A DNA stretch of 64,000 nt from Rhodobacteraceae bacterium KLH11. GTDB lineage: Bacteria; Pseudomonadota; Alphaproteobacteria; Rhodobacterales; Rhodobacteraceae. The DNA is taken from NCBI GenBank assembly GCA_000158135.1, contig DS999531.1:2398051-2462050 (forward strand), read 5' to 3'. Every line of letters starts with the position of its first letter. Position 1 is the stretch's first letter. The translations under genes and the position numbers were made by a program. The notes under the pieces are model-generated. The model did not search any database, was not told the DNA's origin, and saw nothing but the letters and a program-made list of their open reading frames with translations. Positions 2,221 to 61,598 of the stretch are shown one piece after another.

Positions 2221-3440
2221 TGCGATGCTTCCCTGTATGTTGGCGCGACCGTGACGCCGCGCGTGACGAATTCCTGCCCGATCACGATGACATCAGCAAT
2301 CTCGGGCAGCCCGTCGACCCAGACACCTTCGGCGGTGTCCCGCAGCAGGCGGATGGGCATAAAATCAACCACATTATCGGTGACCACGGTGCGCACCCCA
2401 AGCTCACCTTCGTTGTTCAGGGTCAACGCGGATTGCGGCAGCAGGTGCGCTTTGACACCTTCGGCTGCGATCTGGATATTTGCGGTCTGGCCGTCACGGA
2501 TCAGCAGTTCAGGGTTGGGAACGGTGATTTCGACCTCGAAAGTGCGCGTGGTTTCATCGGCTGAGCGGCTGAGGAAGGTCACCCGCCCTTCGACCTGCAA
2601 ACCCGTCACCAATTGAGCCGTCGCCATCGAGCCGACGATGATCCGGTTCACCTCGGTTTCCGGGACAAAGCCCACCAGCTTGATCGGATCAAGCTGGATC
2701 ACGGTGGCGCAAAGCGATCCGGGTTGCATCAGGCTGCCCAGTTCGGCGGTATCACTTTCCAACAGGCCTTTGAAGGGGGCCTCGATGGTCAGGCGATCCA
2801 TCTCGCGCCGGGCGGCGGCAACGGCGGCGGTGGCAGCCTCGATCCCGGCTTGTGTTGCTTCCAGACCGGCCTCGGCGGATTTTATGCCGGCTTTGGCGGT
2901 GCTCATCTCGGCCTCGCTTGAAATGCGGCGGGTCTCTGACCCGAACCCGGTCTCCGACAGCTTGCGGGCGGCTTTCAGGTTGATCTCGGCCTCGGCCAGG
3001 CGGGCATGGGCCTCTTGCAGCCGGGCTTCGGCCTCGGGCACGCGGCTTTCGGCCTCAAGCCTGGCGGCCATCGTTTCGGCCAGGCTGGCGGGGCGGGTGC
3101 CCGGGTCAAGCTCGCACAGCAGGTCACCGGCCTCGACAAATGCGCCTTTGCGCTTGGGCTCGGACAGAACGGTCGAGATGGTTTCGGCCAGAACCTCAAC
3201 CTGACGATTTGCCTTGGTCTGACCCCGCAATTGCACAGCGCTGCCAATCTCGCGCGCGGTCGAACGCAGCACGACGACACCGATCGCATTCTGGGTTTCG
3301 GCACCTTCCGCCACGTCGGCTGTGGCCTCAGCCGGATCGTCTGAGCGACCTGCAAATGCAAAAAGGGCGTCGCGCTCGAATACCAGGAAATACAGCGCAA
3401 CAATGACCAATGCGGCGTTAACGAATGAAATCAAGCGCAT
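2217..3440 (-). CDS. HlyD/AcrA-type membrane fusion protein of RND pump
   Basis: Periplasmic adaptor linking the RND permease to an outer-membrane channel. 407 aa from the ATG at 3440, which has GGAG about 9 nt upstream; an in-frame extension to 3509 lacks such a site. Seen: an N-terminal membrane anchor (residues 1-22), a biotinyl-lipoyl-like half (EVLAETISTVLSEP then GDLLCELD), a long Ala/Glu-rich coiled-coil hairpin (about residues 110-210), then beta-barrel strands. It is translationally coupled to the permease downstream. A possible repressor palindrome lies about 90 nt upstream. Confidence 0.92.
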   Translation of the reverse strand: MRLISFVNAALVIVALYFLVFERDALFAFAGRSDDPAEATADVAEGAETQNAIGVVVLRSTAREIGSAVQLRGQTKANRQVEVLAETISTVLSEPKRKGAFVEAGDLLCELDPGTRPASLAETMAARLEAESRVPEAEARLQEAHARLAEAEINLKAARKLSETGFGSETRRISSEAEMSTAKAGIKSAEAGLEATQAGIEAATAAVAAARREMDRLTIEAPFKGLLESDTAELGSLMQPGSLCATVIQLDPIKLVGFVPETEVNRIIVGSMATAQLVTGLQVEGRVTFLSRSADETTRTFEVEITVPNPELLIRDGQTANIQIAAEGVKAHLLPQSALTLNNEGELGVRTVVTDNVVDFMPIRLLRDTAEGVWVDGLPEIADVIVIGQEFVTRGVTVAPTYREASQ

Positions 3441-3525
3441 GCGGTGTGTTCTCCAGATCTGTTCGCCTGCCCGGATGTGGTACCTGTGCTTAGAAATGGG
3501 GGCAGGCACTGGGGTTTTCTATACT

Positions 3526-3544
3526 AAACTGAATAGTTCGGTTT
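3526..3544. promoter_or_regulatory. 19-bp imperfect palindrome upstream of efflux operon (TetR-type operator candidate)
   Basis: The sequence reads AAAC-n-GAA-n3-TTC-n-GTTT, symmetrical at 14 of 18 flanking positions about 3535. It sits 86-104 nt upstream of the membrane fusion start codon in an AT-rich patch that could hold the minus-strand promoter. RND operons are often controlled by TetR-family repressors binding such palindromes. No regulator gene is adjacent, so the role is inferred. Confidence 0.35.
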
Positions 3545-9103: not shown

Positions 9104-10396
9104 TCAGGCCAGCGTACCGTCGGCCTGCAAGGTCAGTTTGCCACCCAGATAAGGTGCCAGCACATCGGGCAGGGTAACGGTGCCATCTGCATTCTGGCCA
9201 TTTTCAAGCACAGCAATCAGGCAGCGCCCCACGGCCAGGCCGGAACCGTTCAGCGTGTGTACATATTCCGGCTTGCCGCCGCCCTCGGGACGGAAACGTG
9301 CGTTCATGCGCCGCGCCTGAAAAGCACCTGTGGTCGAGACCGAGCTGATCTCGCGATAGGCGTCCTGACCGGGTAGCCAAGCCTCGATATCAAACGTGCG
9401 GCGCGCACCAAATCCCATATCTCCGGTGCACAAAACGACGGTGCGATAGGGGATGCCCAATTGTTCCAGCAAATCCTCGGCGCAGCGCAGCATGCGTTTT
9501 TGTTCGGCGTCCGAATTGTCTGGATGGGTGACCGAGACCATCTCGACCTTCTCGAACTGATGCTGGCGCAACATGCCCGCCGTGTCCTTACCGGCGCTGC
9601 CCGCTTCCGAGCGGAAACAGGCGGTGTGGGCGGTCATACGGATGGGCAGGGCGGCCTCGTCCAGAATATCACCTGCAACCGAATAGGTCAGCGTCACCTC
9701 GGAGGTGGGGATCAGCCACCAGCCGTTGGTTGTCTGATAGCTGTCCTCGCCGAACTTCGGCAGCTTGTCGGTGCCGTACATCGCCTCGTCACGCACCAGA
9801 ACCGGGGTCTGCATTTCGGTCAGCCCGTTCTTGTCGATATGCGTGTCCAGCATGAATTGCGCCAATGCGCGATGAATGCGCGCGACGCCTTTCGACAGGT
9901 TCACAAACCGGCTGCCAGAGGTCTTGGCCGCCGTTTCGAAATCCATCGCAGCAGCAACCGCGGGGATTTCGTAATGTTCCTTGGGTGTGAACGAGAAGTT
10001 GCGCGGCGCACCCCAGCGGGTGACCTCAACATTATCGTCCTCATCGGAGCCTTCGGGCACGTCGTCGGCGGGCAGGTTGGCGATACGCGCCAATTGATCG
10101 GTGAGCAGCGCATCCAGATCTTTGGCCTCGGTCTGCATCCGGGCAATCTCGGCCTTTTTCTCGGCCACCAGCGCGCGCAGGCGTTCGAATTCGGCTTCAT
10201 CGCCACGCCCTTTGGCCGCGCCAACCTCTTTCGAGGCTTTGTTCTGTTCGGCTTGCGCTGTTTCGGCGGCCAGAATTTTGGCCCGGCGGCTTTCGTCCAG
10301 CCGCAGCAATTCTGACGACATCGGCGCATCCCCACGGCGCGCAAGGGCGGCGTCAAAAGCGGCGGGGTTTTCGCGAATGGCGCGGATGTCGTGCAT
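9104..10396 (-). CDS. serS: Seryl-tRNA synthetase
   Basis: 430 aa class II synthetase that charges tRNA-Ser. Seen: N-terminal coiled-coil tRNA-binding arm (about residues 27-105), motif 2 in the segment with [20 protein letters not shown], and motif 3 [12 protein letters not shown] near the C terminus. Length equals E. coli SerS (430 aa). It stands alone on the minus strand, 72 nt downstream of the MscS-like gene. Confidence 0.97.
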
Positions 10397-10468
10397 ATCT
10401 CAGATCCTTGAATACGTGAATCACTGAGACCGCTTATGCACCATCTGACGGGCAGGGTGTAGCACCGG

Positions 10469-12133
10469 TTACGGTTTATCACCGTCCTCGTGCGCTTCAT
10501 GCGCCAGATGACCATCCCAGTCTTCTGCCGGAATTTTCGGCTCGGGCGGATCAGCCATGTACGAAGGCGTCATGATCTGCACGTTATTTTCGTTGAACAC
10601 GGCCACGATATTGCGGTGCAGGTCGGATCTGATTTTCGGAATGATACTGCCGCGCGTGGTATATCCGTTGATCTGATAGTTGATCGCGTAGTCCGCCAAA
10701 GCGGTCCACAAAACAAAAGGTTCAGGCTTGGCCTTGATGCTCTTGGTGCGATGAGCTGCCTCAATCAGCATCGCCTCGACCTTTTCGGGCGGCTCTTCGT
10801 AGCCAATCCCGACGGTCGTGTGCAGCAACAGCCCGCTGCCATCGGTCTTCTTCGAGAAATTCACCACATCCGAGTTCATCAACTGCGCGTTGGGGATCGA
10901 GATCAGTTCATTCTTGATCGACTTCAGATGTGTCTCCATCAGCTTGATCTGAACGACATCACCGATGTGATCACCGATCTGGATGCGGTCTCCGATCGAG
11001 GTTGAACGGCGATAAATCACAAAAAGCCCGGCCAGCATGTTCGAGACAACCGAATTCGCGCCCAAGGACAGCATGGCCCCGACAAGAATGGTAAGCCCCT
11101 GAAACGCCGCCGAATCAGAGCCGGGAATATAGGGTACCGCAAATACCAGCGCGATCAGGATGACGACAACGCGGGCGATGTTGAAGGTCGGGTTCACCCA
11201 GTGACTTTCGAAATCGCCCATGTCGAACGTGCCGGCTTCGACCGCATCAAAGAAGACGCGCAAGCCTTTGATAACATACATGGTAACCCAGGTGATCAGC
11301 GCCAGCATGATCAGGTTGGGAATGTAGCTGATAACCCCCTTGAAGATCAGCAAAACCGGTTCGGTCAGATATGTCAGCAAAAGCTGTGCGAAATACCGCG
11401 TTTCGGCAAAGGCCAGAAGCACGAAGGACAGGTAGTAGTAAAAACCCAGAAAGAAGATCACCAGCAGGATAAAGTTCAGCCCATAACGAACGAGCGCCGC
11501 GATCGCCTCGGCCTGAACGCTTTTGGCGGTGGCGGTTTCCACATCTTTCAGGTGACGCGAGACAAATCTTAACGTGCGCCGCCGTATGCGACGATGCAGC
11601 CAAAGGATGATTACAATGAACAGGACAAAACCAACGGTCCAGGCAATGGCCTCGATCGCGCCAGACACGCGGGCCTGGTCCGTGCGGTTCGCACGATAGG
11701 CTATGATCGCTTCTTCGATGGCATTGCCGTGCAAAAAGCTGAGCACATCCAATTCCATCTGATCCAGTTCCGCATCCGCGACTGTGACCATCGAGATGGC
11801 CACGCCATCGACCAGAATGCGGGTCCCAAGATCGGTTTCTTCATATGTGATGGTGATGCCCGAACGATCCGAGGCCTCAGCCGCCTGGATGATGTTGTTC
11901 TGAACATCTTCGGCCCGCTCAGGCGCGGGCAGGGCGCTGGAGCCGCGCAGGAAGAACAGGGTTTCCCCGTCAACGATAACCGGGGCCTTGAACGTCTCGG
12001 ATTGCGCGGTGTCTGCTGCAGGGGGTTCGTCTGCGGCATTCTGGGCCCAGAGCGGCAGCGCCAGAAGACACAGGCAGACCGTCAGCCGGAACAGCCAAGC
12101 AATAGCGCCAAGGGTCTGGTTTGATTGAAACAT
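10469..12133 (-). CDS. Large MscS-family mechanosensitive channel with signal peptide
   Basis: 554 aa. Seen: signal peptide (residues 1-31, ending LPLWAQNA), a periplasmic segment of about 120 residues, then at least five TM helices and the MscS pore and beta domain (GANSVVSNMLAGLFVIYRRSTSIGD, then IGDHIGDVVQIKL and ISIPNAQLMNSDVVNFS). Much longer than MscS (286 aa), closer to YnaI/YbdG-type channels. ATG at 12133 follows GGGGGAGG; the ORF extends further upstream without a site. Likely role is release of solutes on hypo-osmotic shock, useful in a marine cell. Confidence 0.88.
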   Translation of the reverse strand: MFQSNQTLGAIAWLFRLTVCLCLLALPLWAQNAADEPPAADTAQSETFKAPVIVDGETLFFLRGSSALPAPERAEDVQNNIIQAAEASDRSGITITYEETDLGTRILVDGVAISMVTVADAELDQMELDVLSFLHGNAIEEAIIAYRANRTDQARVSGAIEAIAWTVGFVLFIVIILWLHRRIRRRTLRFVSRHLKDVETATAKSVQAEAIAALVRYGLNFILLVIFFLGFYYYLSFVLLAFAETRYFAQLLLTYLTEPVLLIFKGVISYIPNLIMLALITWVTMYVIKGLRVFFDAVEAGTFDMGDFESHWVNPTFNIARVVVILIALVFAVPYIPGSDSAAFQGLTILVGAMLSLGANSVVSNMLAGLFVIYRRSTSIGDRIQIGDHIGDVVQIKLMETHLKSIKNELISIPNAQLMNSDVVNFSKKTDGSGLLLHTTVGIGYEEPPEKVEAMLIEAAHRTKSIKAKPEPFVLWTALADYAINYQINGYTTRGSIIPKIRSDLHRNIVAVFNENNVQIMTPSYMADPPEPKIPAEDWDGHLAHEAHEDGDKP

Positions 12134-57879: not shown

Positions 57880-58767
57880 ATGACGTTCAGAGCATTACAG
57901 GGGGCGGATATGAGGACCGCCAGCATCGCCCTTGTCATCGGCGGGATGATGTGGGGCCTGTACTGGATTCCGGTTCGGTATTTCGTCGCTCAGGGGCTGG
58001 ATGGTCCATGGCCGGGGATCGTGATGTATACTTCGGCGCTGATCGTGTTGACGCCTTTCCTGATGCGAGAGTGGGAAGCGCTGTTGAAAGACTGGCGTGG
58101 GCTGATCTTCAGTGGCATGTTCACCGGCGCGGCGTTCAGCCTGTTTACCATCAGTCTGGTTTATACGGATGTCGTCCGCGCGATCCTGCTGTTCTATCTG
58201 ACGCCGGTCTGGGGAACGATCCTTGGGATGGTGTTTCTGGGCGAACGTCTGGGCCCGGCGCGCGTGCTGGGGCTGTTGTGTGGCCTGGGCGGCATGGTCA
58301 TCGTGCTGGGAGCAGAGCAGGGGTTCCCATGGCCACGCAACACGGGGGACTGGCTGGCGCTGATCTCGGGGATCACCTGGGCATTGGGGTCGCTGGGGCT
58401 TTATCGGGCGTCCGGCATTTCGGTTCCGGGGCAGGTCTTTGCCTTTATTTCCGGGGCTTTGATACTGTCTTTGGTGAGCCTACCGTTTGGTGATGGTTTG
58501 GCCTCTTCCGAGGTGATCGGTGAGATGGTTATACGCATTGGCCCGGTTGCGCTGCTGTCTGTGCTTTATACATTGCCGATGTTCTTTCTGACCATTTGGC
58601 CCGCGACCAGACTGACCCCCGCACGTGTCGGTCTGTTGCTGATGAGCGAGGTTGTGGTGGGCCTGATCTCGGCTGCGGCTTTCTCGGGCGAGCCATTTGG
58701 GATGCGAGAGCTTGTTGGTGCGACGCTGATCGTAAGTGCTGCGTTTCTGGAGGTCATGCGGGGCTGA
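57880..58767 (+). CDS. EamA/DMT-family transporter
   Basis: 295 aa, ten TM helices in two EamA repeats (residues 15-130 and 155-290), with ERLGPARVLGLLCGLGGMVIVLG at the end of the first repeat and SGEPFGMRELVGATLIVSAAF at the end of the second. Exports small metabolites such as amino acids; substrate unknown. ATG 57880 has AGGATAGGCC upstream; ATG 57910 is also possible. Confidence 0.88.
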   Translation: MTFRALQGADMRTASIALVIGGMMWGLYWIPVRYFVAQGLDGPWPGIVMYTSALIVLTPFLMREWEALLKDWRGLIFSGMFTGAAFSLFTISLVYTDVVRAILLFYLTPVWGTILGMVFLGERLGPARVLGLLCGLGGMVIVLGAEQGFPWPRNTGDWLALISGITWALGSLGLYRASGISVPGQVFAFISGALILSLVSLPFGDGLASSEVIGEMVIRIGPVALLSVLYTLPMFFLTIWPATRLTPARVGLLLMSEVVVGLISAAAFSGEPFGMRELVGATLIVSAAFLEVMRG

Positions 58768-58815
58768 TCGTTAACGAACCGCACGTTGGGCGTTGCATGC
58801 ATGTTGCGTAAGGCA

Positions 58816-58844
58816 TTGACTTTGCGCACTTTTGTGGATATACC
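58816..58844 (+). promoter_or_regulatory. Sigma70-like promoter upstream of GTA remnant
   Basis: TTGACT (58816) and TATACC (58839) with a 17-bp spacer, one of the best matches to a housekeeping promoter in the window. Transcription would start near 58851, about 20 nt before a strong terminator. Confidence 0.55.
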
Positions 58845-58870
58845 TTGTGCCATGCTAGAAGAAGTGGGCA

Positions 58871-58901
58871 ACGGCCCCGGGGCAACCCGGTGGCCGTTTT
58901 T
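58871..58901 (+). terminator. Intrinsic terminator between promoter and GTA gene 1
   Basis: ACGGCC-CCGGG stem, GCAA (GNRA) loop, CCCGG-GGCCGT, then five T. With the promoter just upstream it would make an RNA of about 50 nt, or act as an attenuator for the genes after it. Confidence 0.75.
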
Positions 58902-58947
58902 CGTTTCTCTCGTGCGGAAAAACTCACGCATGAGGTCACAGGCAAAC

Positions 58948-59292
58948 ATGACTTTGATTACCCCGGAAGAGCGGATTTCCCAGACGGCTGATTTGTTGCA
59001 GTCGCTGGAAAGGTCCATTCGCGATCTGCGCCAGGCAGCGGAAGAACTGCGTAGGCAGATCGGTGCCGGGGAGGATGCAGACCTTGCCGGAACAGGCAAG
59101 CAACTGGGTCAGCTAGAGGGGCTGATCCGCAGTTGCCAGAAAGTGGAGACAAGCTTTGTCGAACAACATCACAGACAAGCCGGAATTGCCCAGGGGGGCT
59201 ATGCGCTCGACCTTGATCGGGCACGATCTGAGATCGGGTGCAGGCTGGCTCGCCTCCGCGCCTGTTGCGGTGCAGGACAGGTTTCTGAGTGA
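58948..59292 (+). CDS. GTA gene 1 (small terminase-type) protein
   Basis: 114 aa. The start MTLITPEERISQTADLLQSLERSIRDLRQAAEELRRQ is a coiled-coil like the first protein of Rhodobacterales gene transfer agents (RcGTA g1, shown to act as small terminase). It stands immediately before, and overlaps, the large terminase fragment, as in that cluster. In-frame ATGs at 58852 and 58930 are alternatives. Intact in itself. Confidence 0.7.
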   Translation: MTLITPEERISQTADLLQSLERSIRDLRQAAEELRRQIGAGEDADLAGTGKQLGQLEGLIRSCQKVETSFVEQHHRQAGIAQGGYALDLDRARSEIGCRLARLRACCGAGQVSE

Positions 59293-59812
59293 GATCGGGG
59301 AGGGGGGGCTGTGTGCCCTCCCTTTCCTGTTCGAGTTCTGGGCACTGCCGCATCAGTTGCCGCCCGATGGGGACTGGCGGTCGTGGGTGATCATGGGCGG
59401 GCGTGGGGCTGGCAAGACCCGTGCCGGGGCTGAATGGGTTCGGTCGATGGTTGAGGGGTCTTTGCCTTTGGATAAGGGCGAGGCGTGTCGCGTGGCCTTG
59501 GTGGGTGAGACATTCGATCAGGTGCGCGACGTGATGATCTTTGGCGATAGCGGGATTTTACAGTGCTCGCCGCCGGATCGACGGCCGGTGTGGAAAGCCT
59601 CTGAACGCAAGCTGGTCTGGCCCAACGGGGCCGAGGCACAGGCGTTTTCGGCGCATGACCCGGAGGGGTTACGCGGCCCTCAGTTCGATGCCGCCTGGGT
59701 GGATGAGTTGGCCAAGTGGAAGAAGGCGGGCGAGACCTGGGACATGTTGCAATTTGCGTTGCGGTTGTGCGCCGGTGCATTTGCGGGTGTCTGCATCGGG
59801 TGCCGGAGATGA
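59201..59812 (+). pseudogene. GTA large terminase (gene 2), truncated after the ATPase core
   Basis: 203 aa open frame; ATG 59201 with AGGGGGG. Seen: adenine part FWALPHQLPPDGDW, Walker A GGRGAGKTRAGAEW, Walker B FDAAWVDELAKW, up to GETWDMLQFALRL. The family continues with a Gly and TTTPR and then a nuclease domain; here, after base 59767, the frame goes into 15 unrelated residues and a stop. The nuclease domain is missing, so DNA packaging cannot work. Sequence after the junction is gene 15. Confidence 0.85.
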
Positions 59813-60077
59813 TATTTCGTGGATACGGCGCACCCGGATTGATGGGGATGACTGGGGCGGGCTGGAAGTGCCGTTGGGTGAAGAGAGCGAATCCTATCTG
59901 ATCCGTGTATTCTCTGCCGGGGCTCTGCTGCGGGAGGCGGTCGTATCCGGCACCAACTGGCAATATTCTGCGGTGATGCAGGCCGAGGATGGTCTGACCG
60001 GCCCCTATGACCTTGCTGTTGCGCAGGTGTCGGCCACCTATGGGCCGGGGGCTTTTGCCCATCTGGCGGTGGTATAA
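59769..60077 (+). pseudogene. GTA gene 15 (tail-tip/host specificity) 3' fragment
   Basis: About 102 codons with no start, in a frame other than gene 2. Reads APVHLRVSASGAGDDISWIR, then RIDGDDWGG, and ends YDLAVAQVSATYGPGAFAHLAVV, which is the C-terminal end of the Rhodobacterales GTA gene 15 protein (about 1300 aa in full). Only the end is present, joined directly to gene 2. Confidence 0.82.
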
Positions 60078-60086
60078 GAGGCTGCC

Positions 60087-60383
60087 ATGCGCCCGGTTCT
60101 ACATGGCGATATCAGCGCAGCGGCGCGGGCTTTGCTGGCCGCGCCGCCGGCCGAGCGCAGGCGTTTATGCGCCCGCATGATCGCCGAGGCAGAACTGGCC
60201 GATCGCCATATGTGCGCAACAGGGCGGTTGCATCCGGTCCTGGGCAATGGCTCGTTAATGGCAGCTGCGCGCAACCGAGTGCTGGCGGATGAGCCCGGTT
60301 TCGATGATCTGAGCTATTGCCAGTGTTTTGAGATGGTTCTGCACCTTCTGATCCGGTTTCACCTTAGCCAGAAGCACAGCTGA
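60087..60383 (+). CDS. Small conserved protein after GTA gene 15
   Basis: 98 aa. DISAAARALLAAPPAERRRLCARMIAEAELADRHMCATGRLHPVLGNGSLMAAA is helical and, in other Rhodobacterales, such a gene follows GTA gene 15. ATG 60087 follows AAGAGG. It is 9 nt after the gene 15 fragment. Function unknown. It probably marks the old right end of the GTA block. Confidence 0.65.
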   Translation: MRPVLHGDISAAARALLAAPPAERRRLCARMIAEAELADRHMCATGRLHPVLGNGSLMAAARNRVLADEPGFDDLSYCQCFEMVLHLLIRFHLSQKHS

Positions 60384-60702
60384 CGCATTTGGTCGCGGCC
60401 AGATCCAGTTCAAGACGCCCGTGGGCGATAGGCTCACCGCAATCTTCGCAATAGCCGAATTCATCCTCATCCATGCGGGTCAGGGCGGTTCGAAGCCGGT
60501 GGACCTCGGTATCCCTCCGGGTTTGTTGGGCCTTCGCCATGGCCTGGTTTTGCAGCGCATCCATACGGCTGAGCCGACCCACCGCCTGCTGATCCAGCTC
60601 TACTACAGACTGGGCGTCCTGCCCGGCGGCGGATTGCGCCTCAAGCTCACTCAGGCGCTGGTGGATGAGGTGTTGGAAATGTTCCAGCTCGGCTGTGTTC
60701 AT
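60364..60702 (-). CDS. TraR/DksA-family zinc finger protein
   Basis: 112 aa. N-terminal coiled coil, then zinc finger GYCEDCGEPIAHGRLELDLAATKCVSC (two CxxC). DksA-type proteins bind RNA polymerase in the secondary channel with ppGpp. Shorter than E. coli DksA (151 aa), as in other alphaproteobacterial paralogues. Overlaps the 3' end of the previous gene by 20 nt on the other strand. Confidence 0.88.
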   Translation of the reverse strand: MNTAELEHFQHLIHQRLSELEAQSAAGQDAQSVVELDQQAVGRLSRMDALQNQAMAKAQQTRRDTEVHRLRTALTRMDEDEFGYCEDCGEPIAHGRLELDLAATKCVSCASG

Positions 60703-60788
60703 TTTTCGTTGTAATGCCCATCAAGGGTTTGCGTTTGGTGTTTTTCACACTAGATGGCTATTCTAAGCGTAGCAAAGGAAGAAAAGCC

Positions 60789-61598
60789 ATGTTTGAAACG
60801 CGCAGCCATGTGACACCTGTGGACCCGGTCTGGGACCGTATCACCAACGAGGCGCATGAAGCCGTTGAGAAAGAGCCCCTGATGGGGGGTTTGGTGCATG
60901 CCTGTATCCTGCATCACCGCAATCTTGAGCGTGCCCTGTCTTATCGTGTCGCGGCCAAGCTGTGCTCGAACGAGATGTCAATGATGGTGCTGCGCGAGAT
61001 CGTGGACGAGGCCTATGCCGATGAGTCCTCGTTGCTCGAAGCGGCGCGGGCGGATCTGATGGCGGTGTATGAGCGGGATCCGGCCTGCCACCGCCTGCTG
61101 CAGCCGATCCTGTATTTCAAGGGCTATCAGGCGATGCAGGCCTATCGCGTTGCCCATTGGTTGTGGCGCAAGGGTCGGCATGATCTGGCGTATTTCTTCC
61201 AGATGCGATCCTCGGAGATATTCGGGATCGACATTCATCCGGCGGCCCGGATCGGTAAAGGCATCATGATTGATCATGCCCATTCCATCGTCATCGGTGA
61301 GACCGCCGTTGTGGGTGACAATGTGTCGATGCTGCATTCGGTGACATTGGGTGGAACCGGCAAGGAAGAAGAGCAGCGCCATCCTACGATTGGTGATGGC
61401 GTGTTGATCGGTGCCGGTGCCAAGGTTCTGGGCAATATCGAGGTTGGCCATTGCAGCCGTATTGCCGCCGGTTCGGTGGTGCTGCAGGAGGTGCCTGCGT
61501 GCACGACAGTTGCGGGTATTCCCGCAAAGATCGTGGGTGAGGCAGGATGTGATCAACCGTCCATTTCGATGGATCACATGCTGGGCAAGGATCAGTAA
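60789..61598 (+). CDS. cysE: Serine O-acetyltransferase
   Basis: 269 aa (E. coli 273). First step of cysteine synthesis. N-terminal helical part with LMGGLVHACILHHRNLERAL, then left-handed beta-helix with hexapeptide repeats (HPAARIGKGIMIDHAHSIVI, ETAVVGDNVSMLHSVTLGG). Catalytic Asp/His in DIHPAA and IDHAH. ATG 60789 follows AAGGAAG. Confidence 0.96.
   Translation: MFETRSHVTPVDPVWDRITNEAHEAVEKEPLMGGLVHACILHHRNLERALSYRVAAKLCSNEMSMMVLREIVDEAYADESSLLEAARADLMAVYERDPACHRLLQPILYFKGYQAMQAYRVAHWLWRKGRHDLAYFFQMRSSEIFGIDIHPAARIGKGIMIDHAHSIVIGETAVVGDNVSMLHSVTLGGTGKEEEQRHPTIGDGVLIGAGAKVLGNIEVGHCSRIAAGSVVLQEVPACTTVAGIPAKIVGEAGCDQPSISMDHMLGKDQ

Follow-up and report, generated by a model that had tools for sequence, protein, structure and literature searches.

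Probable recent loss of a gene transfer agent through one large deletion in a Ruegeria genome, and a terminase-megatron join that recurs in its relatives

The window, by which the whole analysed stretch of 64,000 nucleotides is meant, contains what is probably a recently inactivated gene transfer agent (GTA) of the RcGTA type, lost through a large non-producer deletion beyond the size that a GTA particle could repair. As read from the sequence, the deletion is clean, measures about 13.7 kb and has no homology at its join. Comparable collapses recur across Ruegeria, where a second, in-frame join of the large terminase (gene 2) to the tail-tip protein or megatron (gene 15) is common to many genomes and is also found in other genera of the Rhodobacteraceae.

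The remnants in the window (Table 1) are homologous to RcGTA-type genes and lie at the conserved chromosomal place. The DUF7742 gene and the downstream gene that we take to be a serine acetyltransferase gene (cysE-like) likewise lie 3' of intact clusters. Gene 1 is complete; of gene 2 about 45% is left, and of gene 15 8% (tblastn). By tblastn, the terminase frame at 59156-59767 and gene 2 of the intact relative G030 are 93.9% identical over 212 residues, in an alignment that extends 8 past the join. Bases 59769-60074 match positions 1197-1297 of 1299 in the NCBIfam GTA_megatron profile (E 4e-27) in a frame other than that of gene 2; the portion of gene 15 left, its last 102 codons or so, is joined to gene 2 out of frame. 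A sequence-only reading of this locus had held that the terminase is correct up to base 59767 and is followed by the end of gene 15 in another frame, and both the profile matches and the sister alignment agree with it. The terminase, portal, capsid, tail and baseplate genes are not found together in one cluster here. Gene 1 is regarded as the small terminase by analogy with R. capsulatus (PMC6854486, in excerpt).

Table 1. Features of the collapsed locus and its flanks, in window coordinates
Feature	Position	Strand	Evidence
EamA-type transporter gene, intact upstream flank	57880..58767	+	Pfam EamA, E 2e-25
Terminator-like hairpin and T run before gene 1	58862..58912	+	-25.8 kcal/mol, z -3.2
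GTA gene 1, 114 aa, intact	58948..59292	+	98% identity to gene 1 of intact relative G030
GTA gene 2 fragment: N-terminal 204 of 471 codons, ATPase part of the large terminase; remainder lost	59156..59767	+	Pfam Terminase_6N, E 3e-18
Deletion join; parent sequences without a common base	59767..59768	.	Alignment to sisters
14 foreign codons and stop that now close the terminase fragment (218 aa in total)	59768..59812	+	Frame reading
Gene 15 (megatron) C-terminal remnant, frame shifted relative to gene 2	59769..60077	+	NCBIfam NF048004, positions 1197-1297 of 1299; 83% identity to G030 gene 15
DUF7742 gene, intact, 3' of gene 15	60087..60383	+	Pfam, E 2.5e-36
DksA/TraR-type zinc-finger gene, downstream flank	60364..60702	-	Pfam zf-dskA_traR, E 6e-8
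Presumed serine acetyltransferase gene, downstream flank as in intact relatives	60789..61598	+	95.5% identity to the gene after the G030 intact cluster

When the locus was aligned to the related clusters of three sister genomes, the left match stopped at 59767 and the right match started at 59768, which confirmed the join. The bases between the two join points number 13,678 in G030, 13,716 in G052 and 13,804 in G019, so that the deletion is nearer 13.7 kb than the 12-13 kb first proposed. The distance from gene 1 to the DUF7742 gene is 1.1 kb in the window vs 14.4-16.8 kb in intact clusters (measurable on one contig in 33 of the 36 complete Ruegeria clusters), which bears out a real internal deletion with the intervening genes gone. 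A single homology-free event of 13.7 kb would have removed all sequence between the middle of the large terminase gene and a point close to the end of the tail-tip gene, and would make both DNA packaging and particle building from this locus impossible. The view that particle production from the locus has ended is supported by the loss of the rest of gene 2 through most of gene 15; the window genome has lost producer function, one of the traits expected of a putative cheater lineage.

No phage portal gene was found by Pfam in the whole genome (4.49 Mb in 6 contigs, 99.9% complete), by a search that did detect one in 4 of 14 control genomes. The GTA gene-5 capsid gave no match across the same 4.49 Mb; relocation is excluded as far as these portal and capsid searches reach. 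Among 160 IMG/VR loci, none was a near-identical intact contig for this genome. A misassembly, or another artefact of the data sets, is highly improbable as the source of the collapsed loci. The carriers of the common join do all come from assembled genomes, and the named records of a second collection are probably the same assemblies, but the window join sits inside a 3.1 Mb contig, the common join is present in the one-contig genome G107 and in seven named Ruegeria records of that second collection, and events of the same kind are seen in many relatives.

Genes for DUF6456 (387 aa), DUF2793 (398 aa) and GTA_holin_3TM (199 aa) are unlinked to the locus and have open frames in the window genome; the first presumably encodes a GafA-like activator and the second, we assume, a GTA fibre. 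The terminase fragment has a dN/dS of 0.04, equal to that of the intact sister branch. Since these GTA-associated genes are open and the terminase evolves like that of its intact sister, the loss was probably recent, and the open remnants therefore say little about function. Most likely they are without function and have had only a short time to decay. It is quite improbable that gene 1 and the terminase fragment have been kept for a function of their own: both frames are open with low dN/dS, and 17 of the 18 collapsed Ruegeria loci keep gene 1 and the start of gene 2, but open frames are expected after so recent-looking a deletion, gene 1 or terminase parts are damaged in G029 and G037, and G005 is without the whole 5' end and the adjoining transporter.

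The promoter-terminator pair that had been described in front of gene 1 was recovered by half. The terminator-like hairpin is present, and a consensus scan of 58600-60800 gave no sigma-70-like promoter. A crude pattern places a similar GC hairpin with a T run no more than 130 bases before gene 1 in 47 of the 53 Ruegeria genomes that have gene 1, and it might serve attenuation or antitermination control of GTA transcription.

The 54 Ruegeria genomes were scored gene by gene. GTA genes are present in 36 (split across two contigs in G036 and G046), and the cluster has collapsed in the other 18: the window genome, seven genomes with joins of their own (G002, G004, G005, G008, G027, G032 and G048) and ten with one common join. 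The sequence-only reading had called the loss unexpected on the ground that roseobacters keep their GTAs; for Ruegeria this expectation fails. Complete GTA clusters are described as best conserved in Rhodobacterales (PMC9836097, in excerpt). The window's own join is an event separate from the common one, best read as a further independent large loss. For the 17 deletions open to measurement, comparison with the shortest intact span gives a loss of at least 7.1 kb, and comparison with the median gives 7.6-14.0 kb. The deletion in G005 (L035) is not measurable by span comparison; remnants of genes 1-14 and the EamA-type gene are missing there between upstream helicase-side genes and the gene 15 remnant, and it seems to extend outside the cluster and to have removed the transporter as well. 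Small lesions were found in only two of the 36 complete clusters (gene 4 in G015, gene 2 in G022). Of the remaining flagged stops, those in four genomes precede the likely start of gene 6 and that in G016 precedes the likely start of gene 4; in three genomes the stop falls four codons short of the end of gene 1.

Unlinked GTA genes, counted as broken when they had an internal stop or a clearly short frame, are broken in 5 of the 8 genomes with other deletions, 2 of the 36 intact genomes (3 of 36 if the 255-aa DUF6456 frame of G003 is included) and 1 of the 10 carriers of the common join. By Fisher's test, the first group differs from the intact genomes (p 0.001) and from the carriers (p 0.04), and carriers compare with intact genomes at p 0.53. 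In G049 (G049:C49:284150-284560) the DUF6456 gene has an internal stop despite a complete cluster, a possible regulatory non-producer. Between genes 2 and 3, G015, G043 and G045 (L045, L074, L076) have incomplete repeats of the 3' end of gene 2, as if DNA had been inserted with duplication. In two of the 54 genomes, G030 (L060, oriented 2846-3544) and G009, a further gene of about 232 aa that looks lipoprotein-like by eye separates gene 2 from the portal gene.

The collapsed loci are read as putative non-producer ("cheater") alleles. GTA producers lyse, so that non-producers that still receive DNA should gain in the short run. A defect below about 4.4 kb could be overwritten by DNA from producing neighbours, whereas a gap of 7-14 kb could not be refilled from a single particle; this difference would explain why nearly all of the losses are large deletions. 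Passages of PMC6209664 put the load of an RcGTA particle at about 4.4 kb and hold that GTA DNA could restore defective alleles, which suggests that lasting non-producers are those whose gap exceeds the particle load. Against the repair-size view, Redfield and Soucy held that transduction restores too rarely to maintain GTA genes (same passages of PMC6209664). The pattern could also be plain mutation bias, since 14 kb of dispensable genes gives room for large deletions. Recurrent pseudogenisation and loss of GTAs, with cheater lineages, have been proposed (Kogay and Zhaxybayeva, 2024; PMC10883770, in excerpt), so that recurrent loss and the cheater idea are already published.

The common join runs from terminase residue 185 to about megatron residue 676, in frame, in 10 of the 54 Ruegeria genomes; nine of the ten frames are open, at about 835 aa, and that of G037 is broken. 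A query of 120 residues spanning the join was recovered over its full length in at least 16 of 394 family genomes, in at least 16 genera (one match being the Ruegeria genome G042), and in 4 of the 62 genomes of genus g55, one of them already counted in the family search. Carriers overall number at least 28 genomes, ten of Ruegeria and at least 18 of other Rhodobacteraceae genera (at least 15 genera). Among the matches listed, 24 of 28 carriers have an open frame of at least 827 aa; besides G037, the frame is broken in G107, and it is short in G365. In 15 non-Ruegeria loci that were read out, similarity to the terminase stops at reference residue 185 (184 in G390) and similarity to the megatron begins at 672 (666 in G107). 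The genera around G144 and G189 were represented by only one and two searched genomes. In a class sample of 385 genomes, taken whether or not they had both halves, only the family member G107 was matched end to end. A megatron match at G560:C1:1672912-1673097 falls within an open frame of 32,612 aa, which is probably an odd record or masked sequence. There were no exact pattern matches to the fusion in IMG/VR, a collection that may not class such loci as viral. Among the titles and abstract starts of the open-access papers listed, none concerned the common join or GTA collapse in Ruegeria.

A second GTA copy in the collapsed genomes was ruled out by a whole-genome search of 36 genomes, in which gene 5 of the GTA type (more than 90% identical) was confined to the G032 and G048 remnants and three intact controls. 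We take the capsid matches at 29-36% identity in the carriers G025, G122, G144, G196 and G390 to be other phages.

Both states appear to exist within one species. When the fusion genome G038 is compared with a 14,654-base IMG/VR contig that has genes 1-15, the two differ at 1 of 777 positions before the join (99.9% identity) and at 3 of 1968 after it; the gap between them is 11,909 bases, and only the bases GA are shared at the join. The flagged gene 6 stop of this contig sits where other intact genomes have one. A second IMG/VR contig, compared only from gene 13 to the end of gene 15, is 99.1% identical to G038 after the join. From this identity we infer that G038 and the intact contigs belong to one species. 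The IMG/VR loci L306-L465 are cellular GTA clusters listed as viral contigs, several of them 100% identical to the Ruegeria clusters used here.

The carriers do not form one clade, and their flanks follow host lineages. When the 54 genomes are placed on an rpoB-rpoC tree, the ten carriers in Ruegeria require nine changes; on trees of the flanks they require nine (left, 50 genomes) and eight (right, 48 genomes), and a single carrier clade is rejected for the two flanks (p-AU 1.5e-4 and 2e-46). In a tree of those 25 of the 62 g55 genomes whose terminase loci were analysed, the four carriers stand in four places, with four changes of which three are forced (single clade p-AU 5e-6). A family terminase tree, built from few columns and without G037, which lacked the motif, gave 17 changes, four of them forced by strongly supported branches. 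Close to the join, most carriers resemble each other no more than they resemble intact genomes. Over the 150 bases next to it, another carrier is the nearest genome for 1 of 10 carriers on the left side and for 3 of 10 on the right side, and most of these cases come from the sister species G038 and G039. Recent horizontal spread of the deletion along with its flanks was discarded, since a single clade is rejected and carriers share little sequence next to the join. Partial exceptions are these sisters and one part of the gene-15 tree that holds G042, G051, G038 and G039, together with three intact genomes and G032.

The DNA around the common join, where homology is slight, gave no reason for a hotspot. 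Across 34 intact clusters, the matching run at the join has a median rank of 8,987 among about 9,200-11,600 offsets and a best rank of 939th. Within their respective genes, the two join sites have synonymous diversity at the 61st and 11th percentile; with synonymous sites there free, a conserved DNA site at the breakpoints was ruled out. In g55, intact terminases read DE[LIM] and intact megatrons TEY (four of five) or TEF (one of five), and the four fusions read DEY. Since the residue after Glu differs and the fusion has that of the megatron, the two parents have, by residues, little beyond the Glu codon in common. No hidden similarity between the two proteins was found at the join by blastp, and a long phmmer extension was taken as spurious.

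Signs of selection on the fusion are mixed. Carrier dN/dS is similar to that of intact sisters where computable, several gene-15 values being saturated. The gene-15 parts of G038 and G039 have a dS of 1.3 and a dN/dS of 0.06, with the same join in both. The WxDE Walker B residues are kept in all carriers read, and the P-loop is changed in G039. In the family terminase tree, every one of the five long end branches belongs to a carrier, a hint that constraint has relaxed in some of them. In the predicted fusion model (mean pLDDT 74), residues 184-218 and 256-293 fall below pLDDT 50 and the chain is disordered after the join, with no chimeric fold; the central and fibre-binding part of the megatron (domain assignment from PMC7296036, in excerpt) is well folded.

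Among readings of the common join, one old allele is placed first, with modest odds. One non-producer allele may have persisted beside intact clusters through many speciations, its flanks overwritten up to the join and its 12 kb gap not refillable. A codon-identical join in at least 28 genomes, both states within one species and unlinked GTA genes that are as seldom broken in Ruegeria carriers as reported above all point this way. The old allele must be reconciled, however, with carriers that form no single clade by either flank or in g55 and with a nearest genome near the join that is rarely a carrier; the scant surviving shared flank has to be explained, and recombination must reach to within two bases of the join in nearly every lineage. 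Trimming of incoming single strands where homology ends would spare the join itself. More tentatively, the allele would be an ancient 12 kb GTA-minus state kept as a social polymorphism, its flanks refreshed up to the join by GTA transfer from producers and its gap larger than the 4 kb of GTA DNA.

A rather unlikely explanation is a site-specific process that repeatedly excises 12 kb at the Glu codon of each gene. It would account for carriers scattered over trees, for codon precision where G038 shares only GA and for g55 parents with little but a Glu codon in common, but there is no DNA-level conservation at either site and no candidate enzyme; the absence of GTA-type gene 5 anywhere in carriers also leaves no kept circle or moved block. 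More doubtful is that a useful chimeric protein led selection to favour the identical join each time. The mostly open frames, the dN/dS values and the conserved Walker B residues fit such a protein, whereas the disorder after the join, the broken or short frames, the altered P-loop, the dissimilarity of the two proteins around the join and the long carrier branches speak against it. Imperfect direct repeats as a deletion hotspot are barely tenable: 7-8 bases match around GAACTGG in some Ruegeria, but the low match ranks, the two bases shared in G038 and the g55 residues led to the rejection of microhomology, and this reading is close to refuted.

The persistence of a suicidal trait such as GTA production is an open question. 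With a third of the Ruegeria species genomes analysed here without a GTA, deletions beyond the particle repair size and the same join in at least 15 other sampled genera, these bacteria offer a natural experiment that allows competition between same-species producers and non-producers and a direct test of the repair-size rule.

The nearest known system is the RcGTA head-tail cluster of Rhodobacter capsulatus. The window genome resembles it in having homologues of genes 1, 2 and 15, with cluster order and flanks as in intact Ruegeria, and unlinked fibre-, holin- and activator-type genes; unlike it, the window is without genes 3-14 and most of genes 2 and 15 and would yield no particle from this locus. 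The pseudogenised or lost alphaproteobacterial GTAs of the cheater model (PMC10883770) resemble the present case in recurrent loss from scattered, proposed non-producer lineages, but the excerpted passages of that source mention no recurrent codon-exact join, deletion size rule or observed same-species coexistence. Trans-species polymorphism under balancing selection is for the fusion at best one possible reading, its age and selection being putative; the likeness to the cases described in excerpts for animals, plants and fungi is that two states are scattered and the flanks follow the species.
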